Shown piece after piece: positions 159 through 62,895 of a stretch of DNA of 64,000 bases (positions within the stretch are counted from its first letter, which is position 1; the number at the start of each line of letters is the position of its first letter). The DNA is from Sipunculus nudus. Lineage: Eukaryota; Annelida; Sipuncula; Golfingiida; Sipunculidae. The position numbers and the translations under genes are program-made. The stretch spans positions 31,127,456-31,191,455 of the forward strand of contig CM049312.1 of NCBI GenBank assembly GCA_026874595.1. Direction: 5' to 3'. A model generated the notes under the pieces. That model ran no database searches and had not been told where the DNA came from. It was given only the letters and a program-made list of their open reading frames with translations.

Positions 159-263
159 GGATGATCTTGTGGGTGATCCGGTGTCTAGACCTCATATACC
201 GTCATCTTGATGGGAAGTCTAGACCGATCCTGTCTTAATCCATGGAGACCACTAATTACCGGG
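159..263 (+). promoter_or_regulatory. Highly conserved 105-bp core with hairpin, copy 1
   Basis: It differs from 60311-60417 at six bases and two single-base indels. GTCTAGAC occurs at 183-190 and again at 217-224; because the word is self-complementary, the two can pair as an 8-bp stem over a 26-nt loop. The outer stem (GGGTGA 171-176 against CGATCC 225-230) is imperfect here and perfect in the other copy. Downstream are TAATCC (236-241, bicoid/Otx-like) and TAATTA. A single-base indel between copies argues against coding. Function is unknown; an enhancer core or structured RNA are both possible. Confidence 0.6.
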
Positions 264-440
264 AACACGGGAGATATATAAATGAAGAAATGTAATAAAA
301 TAGGACGCCTGGAAATATTTACGAATGTAAACATATTTTGATAAAAGTGTTATAGAAAAGAAATTACTCTGCATACAATATAAATTGACAAAACAATTGA
401 TGAAAATATAAAAATTAGAAATATGCATAAAGGTTCGTTC

Positions 441-444
<4 letters not shown>
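264..444. other. AT-rich spacer
   Basis: Nothing recognised; similarity to the other copy is weak here. Confidence 0.4.

Positions 445-486
<42 letters not shown>
445..486. repeat. (TA)n microsatellite
   Basis: About 21 uninterrupted AT repeats. A similar tract (61897-61932) sits at the equivalent place in the distal paralogous block. Confidence 0.95.
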
Positions 487-488
<2 letters not shown>

Positions 489-1350
489 TTACATATGAAA
501 AGTGGTAGCATTTATGCTTAAGTAATTATAACATATAACTCAAGAATACCTTCATCCTTTCTTATTCAACAGACAGTGCCAGCGACAGTCCTAGGATCTA
601 TCATTTAAAATAGAAAAGAAATGAGAGGTATCAGGTTGAATGATGATCTGAATGACACGTATACATCGTTGAAAGAAGCATGTTATTTTTGCGATAACAG
701 AACAGTGTGAAGGGGCACGGAGTATTTCTGAAGTGACGACAACTGAAGAAAAACAATATTGATCACTAAACCCTCGTAGAGCCCAGTTTCAGGTGAAATT
801 CAATCTCTGAACGCCTCGTTCTTGTGGATTATAGATAGCTTAGAGGGGATTCCTTTGTGTGCGTGCCCTTTTGCTGGAGACATTATTCCTGCCCTGTAAA
901 GCATGTAAACAAGACATGTATATTAGTATTCAATATAATTATCTTTTTTTTTAAATTTTTGTTATATCTTCCTTCTCCTTTGCACCACTTAAATTCAGCA
1001 CTTCAATATATTCTAATGCTTCCACATTATAATACTACTTAAAATGCCTTTGCATCTATAACGTTCTTTGGCCTGACGTGGGCTTGGTCATTCATTGGAA
1101 ATAGGGCTGCGTTTATTTCCGAAGGTCACCTATGAACCGTGTTAGTGAACCGTGACACAATGAATAACATGGGCAAGTTTAATTAAGCTCATGGAGGGAA
1201 TATCCATTTGGGCTCAGCTCACGGCTTTACTTCCGATAAATAGTTTTCTTTGTAACATCCTTCTTCACTGCATGTGTGACTGGTTCCTTCTGAATGCGTC
1301 CAAATTCTTTTTTTTACATAATTCATACTGCTTCATGACAGGATTCGCAT

Positions 1351-1404
1351 ATCAGCGAACGCCCACACTTATAAATATTCAATTACGTCAAAGCTGATCT
1401 CACT
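1351..1404 (+). repeat. Left arm of a long inverted repeat
   Basis: This arm begins TCAGCGAACGCCCACACTTA and ends near GATCTCAC. Its reverse complement recurs at 2099-2157 with a short insertion and a few changes. A more diverged third copy, in the same orientation as this arm, lies near 62709-62760 inside the distal paralogous block, so this arm is the ancestral one. Confidence 0.85.
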
Positions 1405-1911
1405 TTGGACAGTTTCAAAAACTCACAAATCAATTTTTGTCAGTAGTGTTCAGAGACAGGAATATGACGCACGTGTGTGTTTCCGGTTCTGTTCCATTAA
1501 TGTCATGTCGCAAACAAAATTGTCTATTGGAGCTCGAAGACAGTATATCAAGAAATGGAGCGTGTTCTTTTGTTTTATTTTCATTTCTCGGGTTAGCTGT
1601 ACCGGCTGAGCTGCACTTTTGTATTTGTTGACCGGGAATCGACGCGCCTGTAGGAGTATTGTAATGTTAGACACTGGCTGTATTCAAGAATGGGGTAACA
1701 GAGTGCGCAGCAGGTCGAGTTATGCCATTGTTGTGGGGTTTCGCGTGTATTTTCCGAGCCTATTTAGTTATCAGCGGGCTCATGAATATAGATGGGCCAT
1801 AGTAGAATAAGCAGGCCAGGCTTTGTATTAGTCTTATAAATATTAATAAGCCTCAAGGGTAGAAGGGTATTTAAATATGTGCATACGCAGTATTGGGACA
1901 CAACCTGTGGA

Positions 1912-2083
1912 GCCTGCAGAGACCAGAAGTGCCGACCGCCTGTGTCCGGAGATGTGCCCACCCAGTAACCAAAGAAATGCCCAGAGAGGTGCTGCCACCC
2001 AGTGACCATAGAAGTGCTGCGAGAGGTGCTGCCGCCTATCGCCTAGAGAGATGCTGCCGCCCATTGTCGGGAGGGGTGCTGCA
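1912..2083. repeat. GC-rich degenerate minisatellite
   Basis: About four degenerate units of 26-45 bases share words such as GAGAGGTGCTGCC, AGTGACCATAGAAGTGC and AGTAACCAAAGAAATGC. The array is much richer in G+C than its surroundings and lies between the two inverted-repeat arms. It keeps several short frames open on both strands, which are not convincing genes. Confidence 0.75.
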
Positions 2084-2098
2084 AGAATATAGTCTCCA

Positions 2099-2157
2099 GT
2101 GAGAACAGCTTTGACGTAAATGAATATTTTCCATGATAAGTGTGGGCGTTCGCTGAT
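2099..2157 (-). repeat. Right arm of the inverted repeat
   Basis: Reverse-complement partner of 1351-1404, with a perfect 20-base match at its outer end. The similarity stops abruptly at both ends, as for an inverted duplication or a foldback element. Confidence 0.85.
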
Positions 2158-3228
2158 TTTATTACAGGAAACTCCTTGAAATATAATTGACTATGTCTGC
2201 TGCCAAGCCTGCAGACAATTCTGACATGGAATAACCATGGATCGTTAACTTTAAATCTGCAAATATGACATGACCGATTCCAAAAAATAGAATGACTGCA
2301 CTGTTGCAGTTTTACTATTTCCCCAGTGGATTGTGCAAGCTTGCTATTCAGTGTAAGATTTAAGTACAGGAAAGGGTTATTTTTAATTGGATAATATAAT
2401 TCAAGAACCGCAAAACCTTGAAGAAAGTTACATTTTGATCAGAGCAAATAAATACACGTAATGTATGCAGAATGGCAAGAAAAAATGCTCGACTGCCTCA
2501 TAAGATTATTCATAATAACGGCGACACAGGCTCCATGAATTGTTCAATATGTATACATTTTCAAGGTTCAATCACCTCGTCTAATATTTTTACTCGGCGA
2601 CAATTGTAATTTGTTCATTCATTTTTCTTGTAAATATGCAGATATAGGACAAAAGTGAAACCTGTGACAAACATTGATCAATGTCCCATTTTTATTAAAA
2701 TGGACGAAGTACAGTTCTATCAAGCAAAATACATGTTTAGTAGGTGGTTAGCAAATATATTACGATGCACAAAAAAATGCATTCAAACTTAACATTTCCA
2801 GATCTGTCTCACCCATTCTGTGTAAAAAATCCGAGTTTGTTTAACATAGTCATTTTGACAAGAACATATTGTCGGACGGTGCATGTTATTTATATTATTT
2901 CATTGACCATATAAAAACTTATGACTATTTTTCTCGTTTGTTTTGTTAATTATAAAATTGTTGAAAATATTAATGATGATGATGATGGATACGAAATTAT
3001 TATTCTTGTTTCGTGAGATAAACAACTATCATTTATGTCTACATAATAATAGTCATATCTAATTTTCTTACAAATGCCTCACTTACATACTAGTGAACAA
3101 ACGTATACGCTATTGAGAAAAGCAACTAATAGACAGCCGACGGACCGGAGCCGCACAATAACCAAAACCAAAGGTAAACTCGAAATTTGTGAAATCACTT
3201 GATGCTCACGCAGAATTGCGGAGACATG
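2158..3228. other. AT-rich intergenic DNA
   Basis: No gene or repeat family is recognised. A short (ATG)n run lies near 2972-2986. Confidence 0.4.
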
Positions 3229-3230
3229 TA

Positions 3231-4535
3231 CAGTCGAACCTCTATAATGTTGGCACCCTTGGGACTAGACCAAAGTGCCCACTTTAAAGTGCTGCCCCCT
3301 TGTAAGATATATTGCTATAATTACTCATATTTTGAGATTGCTAAATTAACTTATTTCATGTATCATCTCTCTATATTTAATGACAAGTTTTTCAGTGACA
3401 ATTTGTTTTTAATTTTCAAGACATTTGTTAGAAAATATGTATTTTATTACATAAAAGTATGGAAAAATAGGCACAATAAAACGAAGCTGTGTGCAGATGG
3501 TCCATAAGATAGCTGAAGATGTATATATTAATTCATTTTTTATATTTTATAAGCACAAAATGGCAAAGCAGCATGCGGTATTTCACATATATTCTTTGAA
3601 AACTAGTCATTTTCTGATTGAAAAAAAAATACACAAGTAAACAAGCAAAGATAATGCGTCACTAATCTAACATTCTTTATCAAGTAGACAAGTAAGTAAA
3701 TCACAAACATTAATCCGGTAACTGGAAATCCATTTAACATTTGAAGTGTGTGGTACACTTTGAATGAATGTGTTAAATTGTGACAGTTCTTATTCTTGGT
3801 GAAAAACTCTTTGATTGTAGATATTTTGGAGCAAAGTGCCCCTTGTAGGTTTACATTTGCTGTTAGAGTCCAGGTTAAACACCATTTCAACAGTATGAAT
3901 CGTTATGTAACAACTGTTAAATAAACAGTGCCCTGGTCTGGTGGGCATATACCTGACTACCTTTGATGGGCAAGAGGGACATTAAGCTGTGTCACCTTAT
4001 CACAAAGTATTAATTGGATGAAGGAACAGGGCTTCCTTCCACTCTTGGTAGCCAAACAAACAAATATTAATTAATTAGCACGGGGCATATAGTCCGGGGT
4101 GATCTCTGACTTGATCCGGTGCAGGCATATTAATCTAGTTACTAGTATGCATGCATCCCAAGCTAAGTCTTGAGTCAAGTATAATCTTTATTATGCAATG
4201 TTCACTCCTACACCTCTAAATTTGGTTCCTTTTGTTTTGAATGTTATAATTAAAATTTATTAATATCGTTATTAAATAATTAAGAATTAATATTAACTGT
4301 GAGTGCTAAAAAGTGCTATAGAGACGGCTTACAAAGTTTCTGTAAGAAGATAGTTCAACGTTGAAAATCCATGAAGTGTCCACATTAGCTCTGGAAAACT
4401 GCCCAATTTACAGAATATAGAGGTGCCCACATTAGCTAAACATAATAAAGAGAAGAAAAAACAGGACTGCCTAAAAGTGCCCACTTTATAGAGGTACCCA
4501 CTTTATAGAGGTGCCCATTAGCAGAGGTTCCACTG
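3231..4535. mobile_element. Tc1/mariner-type non-autonomous DNA transposon (MITE)
   Basis: The left end is CAGTCGAACCTCTATAATG and the right end, reverse-complemented, is CAGTGGAACCTCTGCTAATG. Both are flanked by TA (3229-3230 and 4536-4537), the target duplication of the Tc1/mariner/pogo superfamily. Words like GTGCCCACTTTATAGAGGT are repeated just inside both ends (around 3280 and 4470-4520). The 1.3-kb interior encodes no recognisable transposase and differs in sequence from the 165-bp relative at 31469, so other sequence may be nested inside. A 13-base G run lies just outside, at 4605-4617. Confidence 0.85.
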
Positions 4536-4619
4536 TATAGAGATGACGTTCATTCTGAACATTTCCGAAAAGCTCGTGGAATATCATGTCAAAGTGAAAA
4601 AATTGGGGGGGGGGGGGCT

Positions 4620-5117
4620 GGAAACTAGACGCTGCCCAAACGGAGATCATATGAACACAAATATTGTCTAACTTCTCAAAATATCGCAGCAAGATGCCGA
4701 TGCTCAGTTCAAAGCAATACTCCTAATTCAGATCGGTGTAGTTGACTCAGAAATTCTGTCTCTCGTACGGAGATCAAATAAAATGAAACCTAAGCAGGGA
4801 ACATACTAGCCCCCCAGACCTGTCTCACAAAATCATCAGAATCAAAGGACGCAAGTTCCGCAAGAAATAGATAGTGTGAAATCCTCGTCAAACGATCCCG
4901 TTCTCCCCGGAATTACAGTGAGATTGTAACGGCAACATAATATAGGTCACCTATACGTTCTGTTGATTAGTATATGGCTAGCCTGTATGGAGATTTGGTA
5001 AAGCAGTACAAAGAGAGTGACATCATTTCTGGTCATTAAAGGTCTTTGTACTCTGACTTCATTCAAGTTACCATTTATTACATCCAAATAAGATTTATTT
5101 GTAATTTTGTAATTTTT
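4620..5117. other. Unassigned intergenic DNA
   Basis: Nothing recognised on either strand. Confidence 0.4.
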
Positions 5118-5452
5118 GTGTTTTCCTCTCTATTATATTGACATTGAAGAAACCAGTCCCTATCGTCTCAGTCATATCTTTCTTTAGGGATAGCCTCTAC
5201 ATAATATTAAGACAAATGTTACACACCATCAAATTGATGAAAAAAGGAATCCCCATCTTTTAAGAATAAGAAAGTAATGTTTGTGTTTACCTGTCGATTA
5301 TATTGACACTGATGAAACCAGTCCCTCCCATCTCAGTCATATCTTTCTTTAGGGAAAGCCTCTACATGATATTATGACGGCAACAGGACAATTGTTACAC
5401 ACCATCAATTTGATGAAAAACAGGAAACCCATTTTTTATATTAAGAAAGTTA
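5118..5452 (+). repeat. Tandem dimer of a 165-bp unit
   Basis: Copy 1 (5118-5279) and copy 2 (5283-5452) share ATTATATTGACA, GAAACCAGTCCCT, CTCAGTCATATCTTTCTTTA, GCCTCTACAT, TTACACACCATCAA and TTGATGAAAAA in the same order. They differ by scattered substitutions and a roughly 12-base insertion in copy 2. It is a local duplication with no coding content seen. Confidence 0.85.
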
Positions 5453-5619
5453 TTTTAATATATCTGGTACTTGTCCAATACCCAACACCAAAAAGTGAGA
5501 TCATCATGGTTCTTTATTAACTACATTTAGAGCAGGGCTTACCACCTTCAAATTTCAGTGCTTTCTTGCTTATCCTAGATGTATGTACATCTGCAGATCA
5601 TAATTGTGATAAGAAACCA

Positions 5620-6420
5620 GATGACACGTCCGTAACCAACAGTTTCACGCGGTCTACGTACCTCTCGGTCCTTGGGTGTCATAAAGGGGTCGTCGCATAT
5701 CCAAAACGGAGCCCGTCCGACCTCTCTGCGAGTTTAAAAGGGCATTTTCGGCAGGAATACGGCCGGTGTTTGCTCGATCACTGCGGCTCCGCCGCAAATT
5801 TTAGTGTTCGGCCAACGTTAATAGGGCACCGAAGCTATTATTAAATCAGCAATTTTCCATAAGCGATTTTTGAATTTGCAGAGCTCGTAAACAGGTCACC
5901 CGTAGATCGCACGGGCAGCGGCTAACATGGGATCGATATTCAGGCAGCAATCCGAAGATTTTAGACGATTTTTTTACTTTTCAATTCGGACGGAGGTCGG
6001 CAGAGCTGGCGGCCGACTCACGGGCTCCCTACGATAATCGAACGACCCCCTCTCGTATCCCGCCCGACTTGTACAAAGTCAAAAGTGCTTCGAGCGCGCT
6101 CCGTGCTGGTGTCGGGCCGGCGTCGGGTGGCTTCTTCGGGCCCCGGCCGGACTCCTGTCAACTCAGGAATTTGAATATATCCCCTGCATTTTGAAATACT
6201 TTCAACATTCCTCGGTGCTCTGCACTCTCTATGATGTGTGAACAGTTTTACATGCGCTATATATATACACGAGGCGCGGACTTCGGGCAGAGCCCACCCG
6301 GGCGCCGGCCCGGATATCAAGCGGGCATTGACAGACCAGTTCACCATCGACCGAAACTCGGACGGCGCCAGCCAATTTTTTTTGTTGGTTTACTGACGGC
6401 CGCGGGACGATTTGCGATCA
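5620..6420. promoter_or_regulatory. CpG- and GC-rich island, candidate promoter or regulatory element
   Basis: Base composition shifts sharply from the AT-rich surroundings. I counted about 21 CpG dinucleotides in 6001-6180 alone. TATATATATA at 6258-6267 is embedded in GC-rich sequence (preceded by CATGCGC, followed by CACGAGGCGCGG), as expected for a core promoter. GTTTAAAAGG near 5731 could be a second weak TATA-like site. Palindromes such as GCGGCTCCGCCGC (about 5782) occur. Frames open here (5566-5844 plus, 6018-6347 minus, 6231-6446 plus) are explained by the low stop-codon density of GC-rich DNA and match no family I know. A solo LTR or other GC-rich transposon fragment is an alternative. 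Confidence 0.5.
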
Positions 6421-7634
6421 CTGTTATTCTAATATGTAAATCTTAAATTAATTGATTAAAATAGTGTATAATTGTGTCTTTTGTTTACCAAGACAAATAA
6501 ATATGACACTTCTGGTTAAAGGACCATACCAGATGTGATTCAAAAGAACAGCATATCACCTTTAATGACTTTTTTTTTCATTTTTTATTGTTTTGAATTA
6601 AATATTATAATCAGGGTTTTGGGGCTTCTTTTACAAGATATATGTTGCCTTTAGCAGAGAAGATTACTTCAAAGGCTAACTGTATTTAAATGAAGAAAGC
6701 ACCTCCAGATAAAATGATTGCTGGGGAAAGGGATTGTGTAAACGACTCAATGGATCATGTCCTTGAAGTTGGACGACTTTTGCTAACGTATCACTTGTCT
6801 GCCTACCTTCGTTTTACTCAGTGATGTAATATGGATAAAGCAGAGAAACCAATGATGTGAATATAAAGAAAAAAGCATATCTGCTTTAATAACAACTATT
6901 CTTGAATATAACCGTTGTAGTTTACCTTGAGCTGACCAAAGCAATATAATTTTCGAATATCGATCAGTTTTTCAATATTGATCAGTTTTCCAAATAGTCA
7001 TATGAATTGCGTTCAGCAGAACTAAAGTCCGAGTTCTCTTTTTTTCAATTTTTTTTCAAGAAAACTCTAGATTTACCTTTATAAATACACGGTTAAATAA
7101 CTTCGGATCGTGTGATCAGTACATGCCGTAAAGGTTTATGAAGTGTTTTAAATTTTGTGTTAAGTTTAATATATATGAACAACGCATAACACGTAAGTCA
7201 GATGATGGGTGTTTTACATATAGTGCATCCAACTGATTAAATTTTTCTTCTTCTGACCGTTTTTGGGCGAGATATCTCCACCCGTGCTGACTCACTAAAA
7301 CTGACCTTGATGTAATTTATTTATTTATTTTTTAATTTTACTCCAATTTTTTTACACCATGCCTTTGATCAAATGGGTTCTTACTCCCAAGATGTTTATG
7401 TATCTATGTCATAGTCATATACCAAGGTACCCTGGATATGTACTTTCCCAGGCATGGCCTTATATCCCTGCAGCGTCGGCGTCATCTGGATATTGACACA
7501 TTGTGACACATAAATATTTGAAGCCAATTGGAAAATGGCTTTAACACTAATCTCACAGAAGAATCCGGCAACCCGCAGGACTTGTAGAAATTACCAGCAA
7601 CGTGGATGAAGATAATTAACGAGTTTAAAGGCCC
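6421..7634. other. AT-rich intergenic DNA
   Basis: No genes recognised. Near 6955-6990 a short direct repeat (ATCGATCAGTTTT, ATTGATCAGTTTT) is seen. Confidence 0.4.
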
Positions 7635-9100
7635 AAGTCCACTGACGGATGTCATACTGTGTTGGTGCGAGTCTCATCGAAGACCATGTAATGATTATAG
7701 TCAACGAGGGGTAGCGGGGAAAGTCAGCTGTCCGAGTCAAAGATGATTGGTCTATATGACTGTCATCCTGCCTAATAGGCCAAGTTTTAACCTTTTGTTC
7801 TTAATAGACATTAACTGTATCAGGTCATATTTGTAAGAGGCATGCGTAGTTTTCACATGGATTTATCCATTTTGGTTATTGAGGTGTTGGAAACAACCAA
7901 AGAGGTCATTTTTCATGTTTCCCTATGAATTTAGAGGAATTTGACATTTTTTGGGGGGGAAAATGCGAGGCGTCTGCTGCAACAGGACCAGCAACAGAAG
8001 CTAGGCCAGTGTTTCCAGAGGGTTAGTTCGGACCTTGGAAAATCCGGGCTTAAACATGAAACACAACCATTGTTTTGTGTATTGTGTTATAGTGAGGTTT
8101 TACACCACCTCAATGGGATTTACCCCTGCTCAGCAGTAACCAATCCTAACGTTGGAAGCATAGCGTTACATGATATTTCAATAAACTAAATCTTTAGGAA
8201 TAGTTCACCATAAGTCCACTCATGAATAACATACAGTGTCGGTGCGAGTCTCATCAAAGAACATGTAAAGATTATAGTCAAAATGAGGTGGCGGGGAAAA
8301 TTTGCTGTCCAACTCACAGATAATTGGTCTAGATTACTGTTACCCCAACTTCACTTATTATATTAGGTGTTATCAAACTAAAGTTGAGTTTGATCTTATC
8401 AAACATCGTCTTTTTGGAAATCAAATGTATCTAAGTCTAAGCTCCTAGACCAATTTCATTAGGCATATCTTTATTTTAAGAAGATTTAACATTATAAGAG
8501 GAAGCAGGATGTTTTTATCTATTGCCACTCCCATGGTGTTTTAATGGGTTATTGCGAAGCACAAGCAATCTTTCCTCATTGGCCACGTTATACCTGTTTT
8601 TTTTTTTTTGTTTTGCCATTCACTGTATCAGGTTATATTTGTAAGTGTCATGCGTGTTTTTACATGGTTTATCCATGTTGGTTATTGAAGTGTTGGAAAC
8701 GATGCCACATGCTCACTTTCATGTTTCCCTACAAATTACGAGGGATTTGACATTAATAAAAATGAAATGCAAGGGCTCTGGTACAGGACAGGCAACAGAA
8801 GCTTCGCCAGGGTATCCAGCGGGTGAGCTCGGCCCATGGAAAACCTGGGCTTAAATTCCGCCGACCAGTTTAGGACAACAGGTGGTATGAAAAGTTATAA
8901 TAAAGCTTGGAAAACGTTGTACATATATGTTACAGCTGAAATACGTACGAACTCAACCATTCGATAGTATAGGGTGTTTTACATAACCTCAATGGTATTT
9001 TCCTCTGTTCAGCATTAACCAATCCAAACCTTGGAGCCGTAGGTTATTCGGCGTGACCAGATATATCATTTAAAATACATCTTAAGGAGTAGTTCACCAT
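7635..9100 (+). repeat. Diverged tandem duplication (two units)
   Basis: Unit 1 (7635-8211) and unit 2 (8212-9100) share in order AAGTCCACT, GGTGCGAGTCTCATC, GATTATAGTCAA, GCGGGGAAA, TTGGTCTA, ACTGTATCAGGT, TTATTGA-GTGTTGGAAAC, TTTCATGTTTCCCTA, GGCAACAGAAGCT-like sequence, GGGCTTAAA, ACCTCAATGG, TAACCAATCC and AGTAGTTCACCAT. Unit 2 is about 300 bases longer. Open frames at 7941-8189, 8544-8750 and 8645-8854 do not correspond between the units, so they are not real genes. Confidence 0.8.
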
Positions 9101-10955
9101 ATGTTACCAAGTATTACGATCTACTCTATGAAACTGGATTGTTTACTCCTAACCCATCATGAGTTTACTTACTTAGATCTGACTATAAGACGCATGTTAT
9201 TTCAACCAGCAGTGAGACTGGTAGTTGAGGACTATCCAAGAATCAGATGTATGTAATAAAGTGACCGAAAATGGATCGAGGGATATTTATCCGGTTTTTA
9301 ATTTACACAAATCCAACAAAAAGCACAGGCTTCAAAGATCGCTTAATGCCAAACACAATATTCACATTATAAAAGGGCAAAAGTTATCATCCAAGACTCA
9401 ATATTTCTTCAGCTCATTTACAGCCTTATATATAAGTTGTCCTTTACATCTATATCTCTTGATGGGTGTTGCTCAAAGCAAACAAAAAAAAAACAACCAT
9501 CAATGCTTTAGGTAAATTCTCTCAGGCGATATTCAAAGTAAAAAAAATCATAATTCCAAGCGATGTAAGAAGGTCTATAACTGTAAGAACTAAAGCTATC
9601 TGACATAACATATAAGCTTGGAATGAGTAAAAACTTTTTGAAAGTACGGCAAATTTTAAACCATATATGAAATACCGATATTTCACCTATTAAGCAGCTT
9701 TACGGTTTCTCACAGAATTATTATGATAAACTGAAACCATATATGGTCGCTAGTGTTATTTATCATAGGTGCTGTAGTTTCTATTATTTGCAGTATCACT
9801 CCCGACACCTGAGCGCCATATCCTCAAAGAGATTACTTAATATTTTATTCATAAAAATAATAGAAAGATTTTGCATGGCCAGAATTATGGCCAAATAAAT
9901 AACATAAAGGAAGCGACTATGCATGTCTGTTTACTCGTTTTGCTTACATTTTTACACTTTTATGCAAAATAACATTATTATTTTCATTGTCATTCAGTAG
10001 ATGGTGCCACCGACAGACCATGGACCAATTCTTAAAGCGGATAAATGTCAACTGTTGTTATGTCGTATTCATTTTAACTGTATTATATTATTTTTAACCC
10101 TTAGCTAATATTTAACCCTTAGCTGATCTGTCCTTTTGCAACTCTACACGAAAACCTATGATTGGCCTTTGATGATATTCAGTTGAGAGTAGGATATAGA
10201 GATATAGCATTTATAATCCAACCCATCAGGGAAATAAATTGATATTAACCCTTGTCTACTTAAGTTTAAAGTTTTCGACAATTGCTTTCTTTTTCACCCA
10301 GCAGCTAGAAATCAGGACTTTCGAGCAGAATGACCAGAAACGTCAAAGATTGCTATTTAAAAAAACCTCAGGTCAGTCTTATAAGATCTTCTTCCAGGCA
10401 ACACACTTAGCCACCCTGCTGGAGGAAGAGGCCTTGTATTAACCAACAGACGGAAGACGATGCGTTACTAATCTATATCTGTCAGCATCTTTGAGGCCCT
10501 GTCTACCCCTTGTCTGGGCTCAATAGAAGATCAAACTCAGGTCACCTGCTAGATAAATCACAAAGGGAAGCGGAGGTGCGTTTAATGTTATGAGGAAGGA
10601 AAATTGGTCCAACTGCAAGTAATTGCTACATGATTATTTAGATGGTCCTTTGTTATATTAACGTTATCACTTAGATAATTAACCAGAACATTGATATGAA
10701 CGTTTTCTTTCGTGAAACGTGAAAATTTAGTCTATTGACGCAGAGAATGTAATCTAATGCACCGGAAAACCATTTCTGGTAATGACATTTAATAAAGAAA
10801 AAGTTATGGTTTGTCTCGTAGGTTTAAATCGCACTTCAAATAACACAACTGCCACCCCCTCCCCATCTTCCATTTCCTAAAATATACTGCCAGATAAAGA
10901 ACGATTGAATTTAAGGATGAGCACTCTTATTAATTTTGTCCGGTATTAACTTCCT
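9101..10955. other. Intergenic DNA without recognisable genes
   Basis: Only a short direct repeat of TTAACCCTTAGCT (about 10096-10125) is evident. The 96-codon frame at 9225-9515 has no familiar motif. Confidence 0.4.
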
Positions 10956-10959
10956 TTCA

Positions 10960-11205
10960 TTTTTGAATCGAAACAAGATGCCGTGTCTATTGATGGGAAG
11001 GGGGCTCCATAAATATTGTTCTTAATGTCGCCACGAAACGTGCCGTAACTCCCCATACAGGTGACCCGTTTGATCACCCTTAATCCACTTTGTCGTCTGC
11101 GCTAGTTGCATGCACTTCTAAACTGTCATCACCAGGACAACAAAGGTCCCATTATTTGACGTTGGGCGCAATTATAAAATCGGATAGCTGTCAATGTGCC
11201 TGGTT
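10960..11205. promoter_or_regulatory. Candidate regulatory element with homeodomain, HMG and TGACAG-type motifs
   Basis: A patch less AT-rich than its flanks. It contains CCATAAATATT, a dyad GGAC-AACAAAG-GTCC at 11135-11149 whose centre is a TCF/Sox-like AACAAAG, then TTATAAAAT and AGCTGTCA (11186-11193; TGACAGCT on the other strand, a Meis/TGIF-like site) 20 bases apart. The motif assignments are from family consensus; conservation is not shown here. Confidence 0.25.
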
Positions 11206-14911: not shown

Positions 14912-14915
<4 letters not shown>

Positions 14916-49867: not shown

Positions 49868-49916
49868 GATCGCTCCTTCCAGCGACATGTGCCTGAGCCT
49901 AGCCACAGGAGCGATC
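49868..49916. other. Perfect 10-bp inverted repeat (hairpin)
   Basis: GATCGCTCCT (49868-49877) and AGGAGCGATC (49907-49916) pair over a 29-nt loop. The stem is too short for a microRNA precursor. Confidence 0.75.
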
Positions 49917-51363: not shown

Positions 51364-51903
51364 TCAATATATGTTGCAATATGAAACTATTGCATCTATG
51401 ATTTCATTTGACATGCCACCAGGTTTTAACAGCTTTGTGACATTGCATTCCATTAGTATAATTTGTATAATGATATATATGGTATTGTGTAAAAACGTAT
51501 GCAATTCGATGGTGTCAAGTTTGACGTAAGCACCATCTTTTTTCCATATTTCCTCATAAATCCTGGGGAGTACTGCATTATGCAGCGCCTGCGATCGGAA
51601 ACTACACCAGTTTACATACTCTACCCGTTGGTCCACTCGGCAAATATAAATGCCTTTTCCACACGAACGAGTCAAGAAGATGAGTCCAAACGCAAGAATG
51701 TATAATCCAGGTAATAGATACAAGAGATCCCCATCTAATGAGTCAACCTGACCCAGCCAGCAACTGTTTTTTATACACAGTAACGTCAGCGTTTTTCTCT
51801 TAAAGAGAATGTCCTTACTGGTCGCACATTTTGTCCTAAGAAGTCTCCGGTTACTCTTGAGCTCAGAAAAAAAGTCCAGGAGGCAGTGTTGTTGCACTGG
51901 CAT
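51364..51903 (-). CDS. Longest open frame in the window, hypothetical (179 codons)
   Basis: An ATG-to-stop frame of 179 codons, clearly longer than any other here. At the AT-rich composition of this DNA my rough estimate is well under one frame of this length by chance. The predicted protein has a basic stretch near residues 17-37, a hydrophobic segment at about 60-77 (LLYLLPGLYILAFGLIFL) and a second at about 136-151 (TFLHNTIYIIIQIILM), so a small two-pass membrane protein is conceivable. I recognise no family or catalytic motif. The frame contains a possible donor (CAG-GTTGAC near 51744, minus strand). Its start lies beside a SINE-like head on the other strand. It could be a lineage-specific gene, a decayed transposon frame or chance. 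Confidence 0.2.
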   Translation of the reverse strand: MPVQQHCLLDFFSELKSNRRLLRTKCATSKDILFKRKTLTLLCIKNSCWLGQVDSLDGDLLYLLPGLYILAFGLIFLTRSCGKGIYICRVDQRVEYVNWCSFRSQALHNAVLPRIYEEIWKKDGAYVKLDTIELHTFLHNTIYIIIQIILMECNVTKLLKPGGMSNEIIDAIVSYCNIY

Positions 51904-51906
51904 TCA

Positions 51907-51985
51907 AAAATTAGGGCACACTGGCCCGCTCAGTGGCTCGTAGTATGCTCTAATATTAAAGGTGATTAGGTCATGTTCGACACCA
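51907..51985 (+). mobile_element. Possible tRNA-derived SINE head
   Basis: CCGCTCAGTGGCTCGTAG (51926-51943) resembles an A-box/D-arm region and GTTCGACACC (51975-51984) is a good B box, preceded by a tRNA-like TTAGGTCAT. No complete cloverleaf forms. Confidence 0.35.
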
Positions 51986-52610
51986 GAAAGATTTCTAAAT
52001 AATCGTTATTATTTGAAGACACTGCGTGAAATTTCGCTATTGGCAAAATCCTGGGGCAGTCAGATTCGTACTCACACCTCCCAGTTTAGTAGTACCCAGG
52101 TACATTAACGGGACTGTTTCTGTTGAAAATTATTTTACATTGATTCACTGTAGTACTGCAAATTGTAAAGGATAATTTGAAAGACTGAATGTTCTAAAAC
52201 TCCACTTCTGAAACTACGGACCGCAGAATAAACAACAAACAAACACAAAAACGAACATCAAAGGGATATTTTCGACAAGTTCAAAAGGAAACCGTTAACT
52301 GAGAAAAGGTATTCTGCAGAATTAGACCAATCTCAATACAGAAGACAAGTCATCAAATAAAAATAAAGTTTGTTCAAAATAGAAGCTAATTGAAATCATG
52401 AAAGTTCCAAACTGTTCGAATCTGGATCCGTCTCAACTTGCAAGAGCTGGCCAACACTTTATATATGAAAATTCTGAATGAATGATAAACATTTCTGGCG
52501 ATAAAAACAAAGAATGCGCTAGAGGAGTCCCATATCACTAAGTTTATGAACCCATCACATGTCTCTGTTGGCGTTTTTTAATTCGATGTTAGTTTGGAGT
52601 CAACGCTCTT
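51986..52610. other. AT-rich intergenic DNA
   Basis: Nothing recognised. Confidence 0.4.
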
Positions 52611-52639
52611 ACACACACACACATATATATATATATATA
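52611..52639. repeat. (CA)n(TA)n compound microsatellite
   Basis: Six AC repeats pass directly into nine AT repeats. Confidence 0.95.
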
Positions 52640-53871
52640 AACCTGTTGTTTTGTAGATATTCTACAAAGGTATACACATTTAAAGATTAAAACAAATTTG
52701 TGAAACATTCTATGTCGGCAATATTTGGATAACAACATGCGGCTGATTGAGATTTCCCAAAATGATATATACAAGTGGTATTAAACAAAAACTAATAACC
52801 TGTGCAATGTTGGATCTGTACTTTTTTTTATGACAGGCCAATGGATTATTTTTATTTCAAAGTAAGATTTAAGAATATGCCCCTTTTTGTTTAGGGCGAT
52901 CTACCCCTTTGCTTCCCTAACAAATCTTGGAAATACAACTCTAAACGCATACTAGCAAAAACCACACGTCCCCGACTCCAGTTTGCTCCATTGCAGCCTT
53001 AACCCCCCCCCCATATTTTCCTATAATGCCTCACTGTATCATCTCCCTTTTTTCAAACCCCCTCTGTTTCCCTCTCGGTTGCAGTACATACAACACTGTC
53101 TGTTTGGCTATACTGGTTAATTTGGTGTTTCTCAGAATTACATCTTCTGTTTTTCTACAATAAAAAGAGCGCCCTGGTGATAGTGTATCTGCTACACCCT
53201 GCTATGGTCCCATTACACAAACCATGACTGGTGTATACGTTTTAGCATTAATACTGAAGCTGCAAGACAGGCCTTGACGCCAACATTTTAAAATCAGCTG
53301 AGACGAATAAAGAGGAGTCGAGAGGAGTCGAGAGACAATATGAAATAGCTTCTAGCAGTGGAGCCGCCTGGAAAACTACCCACATGATGCTCATTAAAGT
53401 GACTCAAACTGGCGGGGTAGGCAGTAAAAGTATCTTGCTAATATTCATGCAAGATCAAGACATTATTTTCTGAAGGATTCCCTTGATTACAAAATATGCC
53501 TTTCTTGATCATCTTTATTTCCACAATAAAATAACATCAACAGTGTCTCTCTCTGTATAATGTTAACTCAAGTCAAAATATTACCAAGTTACCGTCTTCG
53601 TTGTGGTGATAGTAAGCTTTTGCGGCGTTTCTACTAACCAGCGCAGCATCCCATGTTCATTGATAACTATTGATCCTAATGTAAAAATAATTGAACAGCA
53701 CACGGCGGGTCAGGAGTGTGAAACCATTTTTATATTTTTTGGTGAAGGTAACCGCCCCCTATCTAATTAACCGCTGACTTATCTAATTCTTAATCTAAGT
53801 ATGTACATCTGCAGAGTTTCCATTTCGGTTTGGGACTTCTTGACGGGGCGATAGCACTCGCTTCCTATCAT
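52640..53871. other. Intergenic DNA without recognisable genes
   Basis: A short C run (about 53002-53010) and a direct repeat of GAGGAGTCGA (about 53311-53330) are the only features. Confidence 0.4.
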
Positions 53872-54158
53872 TTTTATTTTTTGTATCCTGGTGTCACCCA
53901 GGCCCGGTGTCTACCGCACCTACGGGTCCTGGGTGTGTAATCATCCCCATTGCTGGGTCATAACACCGAGGAACCCCTAAAGATGCACTCATATGTTGGT
54001 TATACACGGCTGTGGGGCACAGCCTCCCCATTAAGCCTGCAGAGCGCTCATCCTGGGTGGGGGCCGACCGTGAAAAACCTCACCTCCTCGGCTGAGATTC
54101 AAACTCACGTTCTCTCGGCTTTGAGTCATGCGCTCTACCCCTGAGCCACAGAAGCCGG
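53872..54158 (-). mobile_element. tRNA-derived SINE, family A, minus-strand copy
   Basis: Read on the minus strand it starts at CCGGCTTCTGTGGCTCAGGG, with an A box TGGCTCAGGGGTAGAGC that is better preserved than in the plus-strand copy. A B-box region GAGTTTGAATCTC follows. It then shares the whole body with 19214-19495 and ends in GACACCAGGATAC plus an A-rich tail. The head most resembles tRNAs of the alanine type. A 64-codon frame over it is spurious. Confidence 0.85.
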
Positions 54159-57100
54159 TGCAAGTGAAACCTTATCAGTTATATACATGGCTTCTGTCTC
54201 GCAGATTTCGGATTAATTTACCCACTGCTGCAAAGAGTACACTTTATGAACCTGATGCGTGGGCTATTCTCATTCATGCCATAACTGTACATTTGCCCCA
54301 TACCAGAAACTTCTGGTACTAGAATATGTAGGTGATGAATAAACTCTGTGATATTTTGACGCTGATATTTATTTTGTGAAAATGACACATAATGTCTTAC
54401 CAAATAACCAAATTAACGAACAGTCCAAAATATATCGACGTTGTTTTCTTGTTGCTCTAGGTGTTATTGATACAAATGTGCACAATAGAGTTGCTAAACA
54501 CGCTGGAACATTTAACCAATTTTGGTTCTTCAAGAGAAATACTTGACTAATTTCTTCTGCCTTGCTTCTTGCTTAACATTAGCTGGACATTCGATATATG
54601 TATTTCTGCGTTCCGAGGCATGGAAAGCAAATCGTTACAGTTTCGACGATATATATCGATACATTGGTGTGACGATTCAGCCCTACTGACAATTCTTCAT
54701 AACCACGTGTAATCTTCGATCAAAATCCTTTAAGCGGAAACTCTTCTGTTGTTTTTATTCTGAACCGATTGACTTTCGTTATAAAAATTGCATTGGACCA
54801 CCAGTGGAGTATAAAATATAAGTTTGAATGTCATAGCTCTTAAAGGTAAAAACTGCAAGGCCATCCTTTGAATCCATGGACTTTATTTTCTTATACTAAA
54901 AGACTGTCTAGTAAATGAGGCAAATGCCTGCCTTGTGCAGATTAATATGTCACAATGCCATTGTTGGAACAGGTGATTCCCTCTCAATTGCATATTAGCA
55001 GGACACGCTAAAGGTCAAAACAGCAATGGCTGAATAGCCAACCCTTAATTTGCAGTGAAATGCCCAAGAGAACATCCTCAGTTCAGTTACGCGGTGAAAT
55101 TCGATGTCCACTGACCAGTTCAGTATGCCTGTAGACGTGCTTGGTTCAATATGTTATATACTGGAAATCTGCTCTAACTCATAGGTAAATTATGTCACTG
55201 ATTAATTAGTGTTGTTAAAATTTCATTTCTGCGGTCAATTTACACATCTATTTGATTAATAAAATGCCCCATTTATGACAATATTGGAAGTAAATTGACT
55301 CGTGAGGAGATTGATGGAATGACGATAAACTTGAATAGCGTCAATTTAAGCAATTTGACTTAAGCATTTAATCATGTTTTAGTTATTATTCAGCTTAAGC
55401 TGTCAATTAGCGGCTCCTGTACCCAGCACTGGCAAAAACATCCTTACTCAAAATTTTTTGGAGATATCTGTTATTGGTTTTCCGACTATTATGTAGTATA
55501 AATAAAACTGGTTTCTCGCATGGCCTGCTGTTAAATATTGGTTTTTATACTTGTACTGCATTATGGTCATCCACGCAACATTTTGAATTAGTAATTATGA
55601 ATGTCCAATGCGCGGTTACATTAATAACGTGGCTAATTGATAGTCCATTCAATGTTTAATATTATCTTATTTGTTGAAATATTGTTCATAAGCGAGAATC
55701 TTTGGGATTTGCTTCGTCGGCTCTGATAAATGATACCTAATTATGGACTCACGAAAAGAAACTCACTTAAGCCGTGGTTATACGCGGCATGTTCCTTTCG
55801 TTTAATAACGGCTTGTTTTACCAAACATTGGGGTGGGGCGCTTTCTTGGTAACAAGTGTAAATGCATAACCATGTGTCATGTTCCAGCCACCTGACTGTG
55901 GTATCCAGCAAACCCGGTTTAAGAAGCAGTGGTAATGCGATAGGAAAATCCCTTGTACAAGCACCTAAGTGCAATAAATTGTAAATCACATCTATTTTAA
56001 TAACAAAAATAATTACGGAAAGCGGATGAGCTTTGCCATGTATTGCAAACGAATATTGACCTTAGTTCTGATATTTCTTTCTAAGCTATTGAATCTGCTT
56101 AGTCGTCCAAACCACTGTCAATAAAACGAGGCTATTATTGTCTATTGCAGTCGATGAAATAGGTCATTCAACTAAACTATTGAACTGTAAAAGCCTATTG
56201 TTTGGTAGATATAAACAAAATTAGCGGACACATAAATTAAAGAGACCCTGAAGCAGTTAACTTACGTGTAGTCTTACATTGTTCAACAATTAACGAAGCA
56301 TTAAGGTACTATACACCTAACAAGCACAGATGTTTTAATAGAATTGAAGGTAAAATTTCTCGCCATCACCTAGTTACTGCAACCATACGATACTGATGAA
56401 AGAGCACACGCAGAAAGCACACATAGAACGTTTTGAAAGGAGTTTTGTTTTAAAGCCAATTATTAACATAATCTTTCTGTAGAATTAGGTTTAAATTTTG
56501 CTTAGGATTTTCTGATTTCTGGCTTAAATATAAATAAACTGTAGATAATGCAATAAATAAAATATATTTAAATCGCCTCTGTGACGGATGTATGAACATG
56601 ACGGATGTTTCTCTTTTATCATCTAGACGGTCTGTCCTTGGAAAGGGCAAAACTCGTAACTGTGAGAATCCTAAATCCAAGAGGGTCCTTAGATGGGATA
56701 AACGTCTCCGGAAATTAGAAATCACTCCGAGGGCAAATGAACCATGACCGACCATATCATTACATTGAAACAATAAGATGTTATCGCAGGTAAATATAAA
56801 TTGAAACAAACGCCTATTGTCTATACTTCCACCAGGGGAAAAGAAATTGACAAAAAGCCTAATCATTACGCCATGAACCATAATATGGAACATGTATTAC
56901 AAGAAATTCATCTCAGTTTTACTTTACATTACATGTAACTGCGGCTTGCATATCCTTCGTGAAACGTTTTAACGTCGTAGCGCATAAACCCTTCGATACA
57001 ACATGACTTAAAGGCATAGTGTATATCACATAATCATGATGTACTGCCATGTAGAGATGTAGCACAAAACTAATAAAACACAGACAGTTCTGGCCATAAG

Positions 57101-57535
57101 TCAAGCTCTTCTTCGTCAACTCGGGTCGTACATCATGTATGTATCCCATACACACCTGTCGTACCCAGGAAGAGGCTGTCACGCGCCAGTTGTGTCACAT
57201 CGAGGTTACTTATTGCCAATACTACAGTCAGTGTAACAATGAATCACCTTTCACTAGGTCTGTCCTCGACGTCGCCGACTGATTTATAGGTTTATAGGTA
57301 AACGCTGTTTTAACTGCTTGTAAGATCTCCGGATAATTGACCATATACACGCTCGAATATTCTGTCATGATGTGACATCTGCTATTAAACTTTCCTAAGA
57401 ACAACACTCTGTTTATTTGCAGGTTCTTTGCCTTATTTTGCCTAGCATTTTATTATCAATTATCTTTACATAATAATGATCTGTCATAAATCAAAGATAA
57501 TTAAGTTAAATGATTGCTAACAAATATTTACTAGT
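54159..57535. other. AT-rich intergenic DNA
   Basis: The 147-codon minus frame at 56450-56893 is the second longest in the window. It shows an arginine-rich middle and no recognised domain; chance cannot be excluded. Confidence 0.35.
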
Positions 57536-57583
57536 ACTGATAATAATATCAGTATTAATCATAATAATAATGATAATAATAAA
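57536..57583. repeat. (ATA/ATG)n trinucleotide tract
   Basis: Imperfect ATA and ATG repeats. Confidence 0.8.
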
Positions 57584-59440
57584 ACCGATATGATATAGAA
57601 GATTTGTTATAAATGCTTTGATATTTGCCTCTGAAAGTCTTTAAAAATGAAATTTTAATCGTCATCTGATTCTATCCAGCTGGTCACCGATAAAGACAAT
57701 GGAATATTCAAAGATATGATTAAGAGGACAGAATCAGAAACTGTATCTCCTGGTCTGTGTGGTTTTGAATGCTAATAGGTTGATACATAATAAATAAAAT
57801 AAGCGGCCACCATTGTAGGAGGATGGGGATTGGAAAATAAATTGTGAACATTAAAATATTTATTGATATTTTTTCCCTCGTTTTTAAACAAGGGAAATAT
57901 CCAACTTTATCTATCGGCTTTACACAAAAAGGAATTTGGTCGCAATTTGTTTACATTTCATTTTTCACCTGACATTCATTGCTTTACCCCCTCCACCGAA
58001 ACACTGCTTTGAGCAGCTCCCTGGATCAATGAAATAAAGTCCTTTAGAAAAATATAATATACAATGCTTGCCTTTGTAACAAGCGAGTATATAAAGGCCT
58101 ATATTCACCAAATGCTTGTTTCTCTTAAGCAGAATTTATAATTTTAGCATGACAAATCTCATTCCAGATAAAAAAAATAATAACGGTTACATAATCAAAC
58201 AAAACGACGAATAATATTTGAGTGTTGAAATGGTTGCCTTTGTCGATAAAAAAACTGTTTTAATAATGGATATTTTGGACCTTTTGCCCTTTATTTTGAC
58301 TAAGCCGAAATGTTTTCAAAAGCCCGAAGATTTGCCAATGACTAAATACTTATGTTGCCATTTCAAGCTATTAGAACCATACACTATTGACGCTACCACC
58401 ATGTTTTACGTAACGGCTCATTCAAAAATGAATATGTAATATTATTTATTATTCTCTATGTAAAAGTAAGTTCTTTGGATACTAATCGAAGCACTGGCAA
58501 GACTACCCTCCTTAATGTAAAGCCTTATTATGTTGACGATATGGACCTCCTCGTTTTTAAGGTCTATTATCTGTCTTTGTTGGAAGCTAAATCTATTTTG
58601 CCTACATCTTAATGAACCAAATATCAGGTTCAAATAAGTTGGCGGGTATCAGTGAGAAAGTACCTTTTTATACTAATGATTTCAAACAAGGTGCGAAAGC
58701 TGTTCATTTAAACAGTCTAAAAACCACAGTCAAAAAAATCTTCCCTAAAAAGATCTTCTTCAAATAATTGAGGAAATGAGTTCTCTTTCGAAAGGTGACG
58801 CCGGCATTAAGATTCAAGTCGGTCTTTAAAGTAAGTGCCAAAACAATTGAAAAGAGGGTGACTCCAAAAGTATGACCATTTTCGCTTAAAATGAAAACAC
58901 CTATTCCTCAGTAACAGGTTAAGTGTTTTATGCTATCCATAATGTAAACTATGTCGATGGAAAGCCCCTTTAAGCTTGTCTGACAAATAAAGAAGTATCA
59001 ATGGATATAAAGGGCTTAAATACCCAATGTCATATTTCGACTATATGGGAAGCCAGGTCGATTACCTACCATTGCTTTAATTTAATCTAGAAATGAGAGC
59101 TAATACGGCATCTTGTCAGCAAACGACTGTGTTCTACCTCAGTGATCAAAGCCTTAATTCTCACATATAAGAAACCTCGCCCCTTAACTTTTGTCTTACC
59201 TTATAATTTGACGTTGTGTATGTACCCATACATATTTTTATTCAATCATCAATCTTCACTACAGTTCTCAAAAAGATAATCTTCAAAGTGATACCCATTT
59301 TGCTCAAATAATAAAATAAAACTGTTACATAAAAGAAATGTAAATTTCGCAGAAACACGGTACGACCTCTTGAATCAAGGTTACATGGAGAATCCCACTT
59401 GCTTTTGCGCCCTTAAGAACATATTAATTCAAATTCAAAT
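57584..59440. other. AT-rich intergenic DNA
   Basis: A small inverted repeat (TTTTCCCT and AGGGAAAT, about 57870-57900) is seen; nothing else. Confidence 0.4.
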
Positions 59441-59682
59441 GGAGGCCTTGACAGTCGAGGGGCAAAACGCTCGGCTCTCTCCGCTGGCGACCCGGGTTCG
59501 ATCACCCGCGTGGCTGTGTGAGTTGGTTGAAGTTTCCCGTCAAAGGCCGGTGGTTTTCTCCGGGTTCTCCGGTTTCCTCTACAGTCTGCCGAACGGCACA
59601 GTCTGAGCCACGGAGAGTGCCTAGATTAGTTATAATAACTATTTGTACAATCCATGTAAAATAAATAAGTTTATAAATGATT
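59441..59682 (+). mobile_element. V-SINE-like element with tRNA-derived head
   Basis: The head carries a clear B box GGGTTCGATCACCC (59494-59507) and a weaker A-box region (TTGACAGTCGAGGGGC at 59448). The central part TGGTTTTCTCCGGGT, CTCCGGTTTCCTCTACAG (about 59550-59585) matches the conserved core I recall for the V-SINE superfamily, which includes the molluscan RUDI elements. The 3' part ends in TATAATAACTATTTGTACAA and an AT-rich tail. An 78-codon frame over it is not a gene. Confidence 0.8.
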
Positions 59683-60310
59683 GATTATGTAATTAATCTT
59701 TGATGCGTTGTTTATATTCGCACGTACCTTTGTGCAAGAACACTTGCTACTTTAAACTTGAATATAATACTTTTCATCGTATATATACTGTAAAAATTAT
59801 CGTTGACGACTGTTATATTTATATACAAATTCTATATGAGATGGAGGGATTTAATGTCATAAATCACTCGTAATACGCTTGAAGATGCGGAAGCTTTGTA
59901 GAACTCACCAACCTTCCATCGTACATTTGTGTCCCTTTAAAATCATATATTGTTTAAGCGTCGGTTTCACATTACTTAAAATATTTTACATTCGGAATTT
60001 TTTTCAATTAATCATGGCACTAAACCCGTCAATCACGTTTGTTTATATGGATAGACATGATAAAATGTTGAAGTGTGCACGTGACAGAATGTATACCAGT
60101 AAATCTTTGTTGGATTCACTCTTCATTGGATTCAAGCTAAACTGGCGTCCCTGAAAAAGTGTAAATATAGTCCTGATGCGGATTAAAGCCCTACGTCACT
60201 GATCAGAAGCAATGTTTCCGATGTGAATCGACAGTAACGTCAAGGTTGCCCGTTTATTTTTAAATATTCTATGGTGGGATTTGATTTTTCTCAATATATC
60301 TCGCCAAGGT
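59683..60310. other. AT-rich intergenic DNA
   Basis: The 91-codon frame at 59879-60154 has no recognised domain. Confidence 0.4.
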
Positions 60311-60417
60311 GGAATGATCTTGTGGGTGGTCCGGTGTCTAGACCTCATATACAGTCATTCTTGATGGGAAGTCTAGACCCACCCTGTCTTAATCCGTGGA
60401 GACCACTGATTACCGGG
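60311..60417 (+). promoter_or_regulatory. Highly conserved 105-bp core with hairpin, copy 2
   Basis: Pairs GTCTAGAC at 60336-60343 with 60371-60378 and, outside a 6-nt one-sided bulge, GGGTGG (60324-60329) with CCACCC (60379-60384). This gives a 14-bp stem with a 27-nt loop. TAATCC lies at 60390-60395 and TGATTACC near the end. Confidence 0.6.
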
Positions 60418-61471
60418 TTACTTTAATGTCTCCTTATGCTTGTGTAGTCTCCACGAATTAGGGCAACTTGATAACATACGTCACAGCAACAAATCACTTT
60501 AAATAATAACCAATACGTACATAGGTTTCAGCATATTCATTATACCTCTATTTATACCCAAGCATAGTTATGTGAACCGTGAACAAGCTACCATCCCGTT
60601 AAACAGGCCTTCTTGAGATAAAGTTTACTTGTATTGAATCGTTTCATAAGGGAGTTTCAAAGAATTACTATTTTCCTACTATTTATCAATCCTACTTTTA
60701 ATTACAACTCACTGAAAAGTTGATACATTGAGTGAAACAGCAACGAATAATAAGCACTACAAGAAATTCGCAGAGTTATTTTTGCAGGACGAAAGATTTT
60801 GTTCGAAATAAAATCACAAAGATTGTTCACAAATACAGAAATATTTTATATAAATTAACGAACTAAAGGTGAATTTTTATAAAAAGCATTGAAATAAGGA
60901 TATCATTTCAAGAGATTAACTTAACTAACTGCGAGCGCAACCTCGTTCCTCTGTTGGAAGTAGGTCTTTCGAAATGTCAAAGTGCTTTGATTAATAATGA
61001 CGGGAACAGCACACACAGTAAGCTCGATGAGGATTCAACTGTTTTAGTCATGTTTATACCTCATGCCCTACAGGTGCATTGTCACTTTAAATAACCCAGA
61101 TCAATCGTTATATTTGTGCGTGAACAACACTTACCATATGCAACAAAAATTAAGTTGGTACTCAGCATATTGGTGACCCCCTGTATTTCCATTGAATTTC
61201 ATATAGCATATATACAAGCATGTCTCATAAGAGTTAACTGACGATATCCAAATTGTACGCGAAAGGGAAAAGTCTTTGCTTTTTGAGTTCACATGTGATC
61301 CATCACTTGTAGACTTAAGTTAATGGTTGTTATAGGATAAAGATTTTTAATAAGTCGAATATATGTGTCATGTCACAGCTGCGCTAATCCCACCACCATC
61401 GACTTTCACTGGCTCACATTTCTTGTAGAAATGGTAAAACGATGTCCTCACATCGTCGACGTGTAGTCACA

Positions 61472-61472
61472 T

Positions 61473-61543
<71 letters not shown>
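61472..61543. repeat. (TA)n(GA)n compound microsatellite
   Basis: TA repeats to 61490 then GA repeats with one interruption to 61543. It is part of the extra DNA in copy 2 of the paralogous block. Confidence 0.95.
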
Positions 61544-61892
61544 TTTGGTGAAAGTTTAGTATTGCCTTGTACTCTTTGATATGATTTAATTTTTTTTATT
61601 ATTTATTTATAACAGACTTAACATTTTCCTAGATTATTTACAATTGTCAATCCTGAGAAAGTATTTAAGCTGACGCTGGTTGCTCTTTAGAATTCATAAT
61701 TAATATTTTTTTCATACTTTATCACATAATTTATCACACAAGAAATTTATATTTGTTTACATGGAATACTTTTTTCAACTAATTTATGCTCCTTTTGGGC
61801 TCTTAAAAATAGACAACGCAGTAACGATCTTTTTAGGAGAAGAGGGGTGATAGATTGAGAATTCGCTTTGAAAGAACAAAATTTTTAACAGA

Positions 61893-61896
<4 letters not shown>

Positions 61897-61932
<36 letters not shown>
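61897..61932. repeat. (TA)n microsatellite
   Basis: Positional equivalent of the tract at 445-486. Confidence 0.95.
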
Positions 61933-61938
<6 letters not shown>

Positions 61939-62895
61939 AAAGAAAAGACAATTTGAATAAAATGTTCTATAAGTTTGTATGATGATCTGAATGGCGAATC
62001 TGATGGAACTTCGTGAGATGGACATTGTTTATTTGAATGTATTCAGCAGAACAAAGAACCTCTTTATTATCAATAGGCCCTCCCAGAGCTCAGTTTCCGG
62101 TAGAATTCATGCTTTGGGCATTCCTCTTATGCGGTTCCTTCTTGCGGATTATAGATAGCTTGGATAAGTTTGTATCTGAGTCTTTTTATCTAGGAAATTA
62201 TTCCTGCTCTCTAATATTTCTTTTTTACGTTTGGTCGGCCGGGCGAGGTTTAAAAGTTTTCAGACATACAGGACATCTTAATAAGTATTCAATAAAATTT
62301 ATTTTCATTCGTTATGGTTCGAAGTCTACTAGTTTATCGGATCGTTATTTTTTAGGAAGTGCATTAGGACTTGTATAGCGTTTGCGTCTTCTTTACTCTA
62401 AACATTTTAACACTTCAAATGTATATAATACTACCCTATCATAATACTCATATTATTATTATAATTATACCATTCTCTATCCTTGCGTTGGCTCAGTCAA
62501 TCATCTGTTATGAAGCAGCGTTTATTTTTGCTGTAACCCGTATTAGTCCTACCATGTAGAACACTGGATAATTTGTAAGGCACCTTGCTGGAGTATCCAT
62601 TAAGGATAAGAGTAAACTTTTTTCTATCTTCGTCACTTTATGAGTGACTGGTTCCTTCTGCTTTTAAAGAATTCTATCTTATTTTTATCAGCCTGGATCC
62701 ACGTGCTAGTAAACGCCCACACCTGTCACGTTATATGTTAAATCACATCAAAGCTCATCATTCTTGGAACACTTGGAAAAATACAAAACTATTTTAAGTA
62801 ATCATGGGAGGTAGAAATCTGACTTGCGTGAGCATTTCCGGTTCAATTCAATTAGTATCACTTCGTGCACAACAGAGTCTACATGAGCTCTGAAG

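Follow-up and report, generated by a model that had tools for sequence, protein, structure and literature searches.

The window examined here, a stretch of 64,000 nucleotides of the Sipunculus nudus genome (GCA_026874595.1, CM049312.1, hereafter C7, positions 31127456-31191455 of the plus strand), contains two copies of a short non-coding element, the core, and between them one complete unit of a tandem array on the same chromosome. The genome (1.43 Gb, 153 contigs) was searched with window 159-1545 as query, and among the best 40 of 69 candidates, which were scored, the core (window 159-263) was found in eight copies, all on the plus strand and all within C7:30.836-31.272 Mb. Seven core-bearing units (A, B, C, D, W1, W2, and E) and one partial unit, the half unit Z to the left of A, were distinguished, in a single orientation and on a single chromosome. 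Successive core-to-core steps were 82.4, 1.2, 72.0, 57.5, 78.7, 60.2, and 84.4 kb, i.e., 57-84 kb from unit to unit apart from one local 1.2-kb copy. The latter, with cores B0 and B 1193 bases apart (piece L024), represents a small local duplication within the array.

The sequence-only reading had described the two ends of the window as collinear, co-oriented look-alike blocks 60 kb apart, and this description was borne out. The core pair (window 84-263 vs. 60245-60417) was 80% identical over 181 columns (E-value 1e-41) and the second-block pair (window 969-1539 vs. 62382-62895) 61% identical over 580 columns (E-value 1e-28). Exact words of at least nine bases common to both blocks numbered 42, 18 of which formed one ordered, co-oriented chain. 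Outside the core this chain comprised 10 words and 121 letters, compared with a mean of 5.2 words (maximum 9) and 49 letters (maximum 82) in 200 shuffles; several of the weaker common words are due to chance, but the chain is not. The best local score calculated without the core and the (TA)n tract was 379, vs. a mean of 99 (standard deviation 10.5, maximum 136) for 200 dinucleotide shuffles, and the resemblance outside the core thus withstood comparison with shuffled sequence. Seven of the eight gaps in the W1-W2 blastn chain were not multiples of three, as had been noted for the indels. The (TA)n tract at the equivalent place of both blocks was present in D as well (L030 5276-5319) and missing between the core and the next block of units A and B. 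With (TA)8 or longer tracts being frequent (7 in the window, 31 in the 238 kb to its left), it was rejected as a unit-wide landmark; it constitutes weak evidence and may be common to the D/W1/W2 sub-group or a product of chance. Within the second block, window 1351-1404 recurs inverted about 750 bases further on, at 2098-2157, with 87% identity, and this stretch also matches W2.

Comparison of whole units confirmed the proposal that the intervening 60 kb represent one unit of a tandemly duplicated locus. Window 1-60150 was compared with units A and B by blastn after repeat masking, and plus-strand matches at E-values of up to 1e-3 were considered. One collinear chain accounted for 24 of the 25 matches to A (window 84 to 57101) and for 31 of the 37 matches to B (window 84 to 58453); as controls for A, 2 matches were obtained with the reversed sequence and 4 with the reverse complement. 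When inner stretches of the unit served as genome queries, the picture was the same for most units: 10.9-13.55 kb was recovered in A, B, C, D, W1, W2, and E, 32.9-33.5 kb had nine genome matches, confined to the array (A, B at three places, C, D, W1, W2, and E), and 56.9-58.5 kb was recovered in Z, B, C, D, W1, and W2 and was absent from E, with a weak copy in A. The 32.9-kb block is single in all units except B, where it is triplicated (C7:30953725, 30955344, and 30965479). The closest pair, A and B, shared 59 blocks with 37.3 kb aligned and a mean identity of 78% (426 windows of 150 bases); all other unit pairs were less alike, and the sub-groups A/B/C and D/W1/W2 are near saturation relative to each other outside conserved islands.

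Small portions of the stretches searched are dispersed repeats, namely only window ~523-623, ~12388-12565, and ~57517-57596, the first of which accounted for most matches outside the C7 array among the best 40 of the 69 candidates. The core did not have copies genome-wide and in both orientations as a dispersed repeat family would, and both it and the main blocks were restricted to one locus and one orientation. A pattern search with the core centre recovered all eight cores of the array with 0-2 mismatches, a single place outside it (C14) with 2 mismatches, and 20 places with 3 mismatches, the reversed control giving 33 matches in all. The explanation the sequence-only reading had singled out for checking, a high-copy dispersed repeat with two chance occurrences in the window, is thereby refuted as regards the core and main blocks and can be practically dismissed.

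To the left the array extends beyond A with partial units, as the 50.6-kb block was found at C7:30738776, 30778951, and 30806514. The rightmost array block found was that at 31307948-31308530. In 31325001-31330000 (L036) there was one 69-base plus-strand match to window 46248-46316, which would be collinear, the other matches looking dispersed, and 31338001-31346000 (L035) contained repeats only; the array probably terminates somewhere from 31.308 to 31.338 Mb. The ancestral unit may have ended at about 40-50 kb of the window, with the core inside it, because a boundary of this kind would fit both the half unit on the left and the right-end unit without its second half.

The core is about 106 bases long, and up to 180 in most units. 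The alignment of the eight cores had 65 invariant positions among 128 columns and a mean column identity of 87%. For 21 pairs of seven units (20 shuffles each) the z-score of the core was 21-51, and that of bases 180-600 counted from the core start was 3 or less in 19 pairs, the exceptions being A-B (35) and W1-D (14). In the second block (window 591-1560, 0.4-1.4 kb downstream of the core; six units, without E and B0) identity was 73-85% within A/B/C, 61-66% within D/W1/W2, and 53-58% between these groups. Since cores of different units are 72-97% identical in pairwise comparison, vs. 53-58% for the neighboring block between sub-groups, we conclude that the core is under selective constraint, perhaps with some conversion or homogenization. 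It is, in other words, a paralogous non-coding sequence that has been preserved better than its flanks, as is characteristic of a duplicated conserved non-coding element (dCNE). Once simple repeats had been filtered, only four words of at least 15 bases were common to W1, A, and B. The core contained two of them, 26 and 15 bases long; a third, of 16 bases, lay directly upstream, and the fourth, of 17 bases, at window 826-842. The longest was GGTGTCTAGACCTCATATACCGTCAT. A microRNA was also considered, with these just four words as the result bearing on it.

The W1 core together with its 75 upstream bases (window 84-263) best matches A and B, with an abrupt end of the likeness at 263, and W1 is without about 75 further bases past 263 that other units keep, which points to a conversion tract or a deletion. 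Such a tract would be expected if the locus were a passive old duplication without present function whose cores are kept alike by gene conversion only, and the 1.2-kb local copy (B0/B) likewise indicates ongoing rearrangement. The seven other cores, however, grade from 73 to 97% and are not near identity, and short ordered words persist in the otherwise saturated neighboring block, so that we consider conversion as the sole agent very improbable.

Genes were searched for in the window and in the parts of the other units that were read, the reading having taken in portions of units C, D, W2, and E and very little of the flanks. Codon-phase conservation, defined as third-position excess in stop-free gapless runs of at least 20 codons, was determined for the 28 pairs of eight unit pieces with repeats unmasked; none of the 1992 runs in the parts read reached p<0.001, and 7 reached p<0.01 vs. 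20 expected. After two repeat stretches had been masked, the window contained 243 stop-to-stop open reading frames (ORFs) of at least 55 amino acids (271 before masking). A Pfam search with 143 of them, hand-picked mainly by length, gave only 15 weak single-member matches with E-values of 0.002-0.097, the best being PIG-U (E-value 0.002). A further 36 ORFs from other pieces (32 of the 75 ORFs of at least 110 amino acids and 4 of at least 15 ORFs in L035) gave one match (E-value 0.0063, 17.2 bits vs. a cut-off of 27). No stop-free block was taken for an exon among the tblastx matches listed, the longest window ORF starting with ATG, GTG, or TTG was 179 amino acids, and GC content was 34-41% in 2-kb steps. 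The core itself was rejected as a coding exon: its long frame is uninterrupted in five copies (A, B0, B, C, and W2), whereas stops break it in D and E and a base is missing from it in W1, and core differences by codon position (207/223/156) do not favor third positions.

A protein-coding array was accordingly rejected for the stretches read on the basis of codon-position statistics, ORFs, and Pfam, and duplication of a gene cluster, which had been offered as an alternative to segmental duplication, is unsupported, no gene having been found in the parts read. Protein genes could still have been missed if their exons were very short, fast-evolving, or located in unread parts, or if the array lay in the introns of one large gene. 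The codon test, which demands 20 gap-free codons and a third-position excess, misses very short or fast-evolving exons, and a fast-evolving protein would therefore escape it; the partial coverage described above leaves room for exons elsewhere. Weighed against the absence of codon-phase signal, the weak single Pfam matches, and the interrupted core frame, such genes appear unlikely.

The single orientation of all units, as for repeated transcription units, and the many spaced blocks kept would also suit a tandem array of long non-coding RNA genes, in which the core would be the promoter or first exon and the spaced blocks exons or RNA elements. Among 33 predicted base pairs of the core, four were changed on both sides in one copy with pairing kept. 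The predicted fold of the core was nevertheless unsupported (z-score -0.14), the covariation term was +0.22, and the helix that the two palindromes described below would form breaks without compensation; neither the window nor 11 further loci yielded an Rfam family at gathering score, and no tRNA was found in the window. Covarying helices in the core and known RNA families were thus not found, and the long non-coding RNA array is a minor but real possibility. As for the core, a DNA-level regulatory element is favored over a folded RNA.

The core carries the 8-bp palindrome GTCTAGAC, which is intact in seven of eight cores. A second occurrence lies 34-35 bases further on. Within the window all four occurrences fall inside cores, and so do 5 of the 10 present in the 238 kb to its left. 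According to PMC11607640 this sequence is the 8-bp palindromic Smad-binding element, which was the commonest site when DNA was selected with activated Smad complexes of three human cell lines. The core therefore has a sequence feature expected of a Smad-responsive element, for which palindromic Smad-binding elements or CAGA sites are characteristic: seven cores carry an exact palindrome, four carry two, and one carries none. We infer that the core is a cis-regulatory element, either an enhancer or a promoter from which a non-coding transcript starts, and Smad proteins might act on it via GTCTAGAC together with other factors, to which we assign about one chance in three. The suggestion that the two blocks had retained shared regulatory elements is in this way upheld with regard to constraint on the core, which was measured, and stays putative with regard to regulatory activity.

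Taken together, the best explanation of the locus is an old segmental duplication in tandem, affecting non-coding sequence, with a single presumed cis-regulatory core preserved per unit, a reading to which we assign a probability of about 0.55. A stretch of about 60 kb, intergenic or intronic, would have been copied in head-to-tail order at a single locus, with recurrent unequal exchange as the simplest mechanism, to give at least seven units. These units have since diverged, and in every one of them the core has been kept far better than its surroundings. The core would serve as an enhancer or as a promoter of a non-coding transcript, Smad-read via GTCTAGAC with other factors, and the array would multiply this candidate element beside or inside a target locus. 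Should the number of units itself have been selected, the locus would be a gene-free enhancer array, a non-coding regulatory stretch multiplied at least sevenfold over about 0.5 Mb with a Smad-type core in each unit, which we regard as distinctly unlikely.

Several observations weigh against the segmental duplication with regulatory cores. The motif was chosen after the sequence had been seen, the second GTCTAGAC is intact in only four of eight cores, and core D has no intact palindrome. TAATCC, which suits homeodomains of the Otx/Gsc/Pitx type, is present in only five of eight cores. Furthermore, the W1 core is more similar to A (93%) than to W2 (86%) or D (75%), although the neighboring block of W1 has 61% identity with D and W2 and 58% with A, a discordance that conversion would explain as well as constraint. 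The proposed Smad and regulatory role of the core, finally, derives from the sequence of a single species.

Table 1. Coordinates of cores and conserved blocks of the array (window positions unless prefixed by C7; two core starts were shifted back by 2 bases relative to their genome match).
Feature	Position	Strand	Basis or remark
Core A start	C7:30835787	+	
Core B0 start	C7:30918146	+	
Core B start	C7:30919339	+	
Core C start	C7:30991383	+	
Core D start	C7:31048873	+	
Core W1 start	C7:31127614 (window 159)	+	
Core W2 start	C7:31187767	+	
Core E start	C7:31272142	+	
Complete tandem unit W1, from its core start to that of W2	159..60311	+	Collinear with A and B; blocks also in C, D, W2, E
Core of W1, GTCTAGAC at 183 and 217	142..263	+	Eight-copy alignment, pattern search
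Second conserved block of W1: ATGATGATCTGAATG, GGATTATAGATAGCTT, ATTATTCCTGC, GTGACTGGTTCCTTCTG, AACGCCCACAC, TTTCCGGTTC	640..1545	+	Six-unit alignment, word chain
Conserved blocks 10971-11428, 12755-13499	10971..13499	+	A, B, C, D, W1, W2, E, all on plus strand
Conserved blocks 16910-17149, 18136-18483	16910..18483	+	Collinear in A and B
Conserved blocks 23275-23577, 23991-24308, 25541-25856	23275..25856	+	Collinear in A and/or B
Conserved blocks 31705-32041, 32928-33497	31705..33497	+	
Conserved blocks 36420-36553, 39967-40257	36420..40257	+	Comparison with A and B
Conserved blocks 50568-50865 (also left of A), 52360-52604, 53140-53715	50568..53715	+	
Unit-end conserved blocks	56940..58453	+	Z, B, C, D, W1, W2; weak in A
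Core of W2, GTCTAGAC at 60336 and 60371; likeness to A and B continues to ~60458	60295..60417	+	
Second conserved block of W2, words as in W1 block (ATGATGATCTGAATG-TTTCCGGTTC)	61979..62895	+	

Other repeats at the locus include a satellite with a period of about 337 bases and 7.9 copies at window 19642-22305, with related arrays at C7 ~30793500-30796500, ~30911600-30914400, and L035 3195-4396. Window 15235-15939 was 97% identical to C7 ~30954464-30955162 and 90% identical to an inverted copy at ~30935070-30935774; it is far more alike than the units are and would represent a recent mobile-element-like copy. At the left edge of the reading (C7 ~30.760-30.774 Mb, L009-L010) ORF-like stretches recur every 3281 bases as a larger tandem repeat.

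Tandem duplication is discussed mostly for genes, and no such array was described among the literature titles found, which is a weak negative. The array offers, inside one genome, a presumed regulatory element in eight natural versions with nearly randomized flanks, and the functional bases of this element would be readable without a second species. The dCNEs of vertebrates (McEwen 2006, as described in PMC2781166) are similar in that paralogous non-coding elements persist in the copies of a single ancestral regulatory region whereas the sequence between them is lost, but they lie near paralogous developmental genes and are traced to whole-genome duplication. The array consists of at least seven tandem copies, and because no neighboring paralogous gene was found in the parts read, it was not classified as a dCNE. 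With tandem segmental duplications, or low-copy repeats, it shares large, adjacent, collinear units arranged head to tail in one orientation at one locus. At about 78% identity or less between units, vs. the 90% given for segmental duplications in PMC3878106, it falls below their strict definition (>90%; A-B mean 78%, other pairs lower) and is far older than recent segmental duplications.

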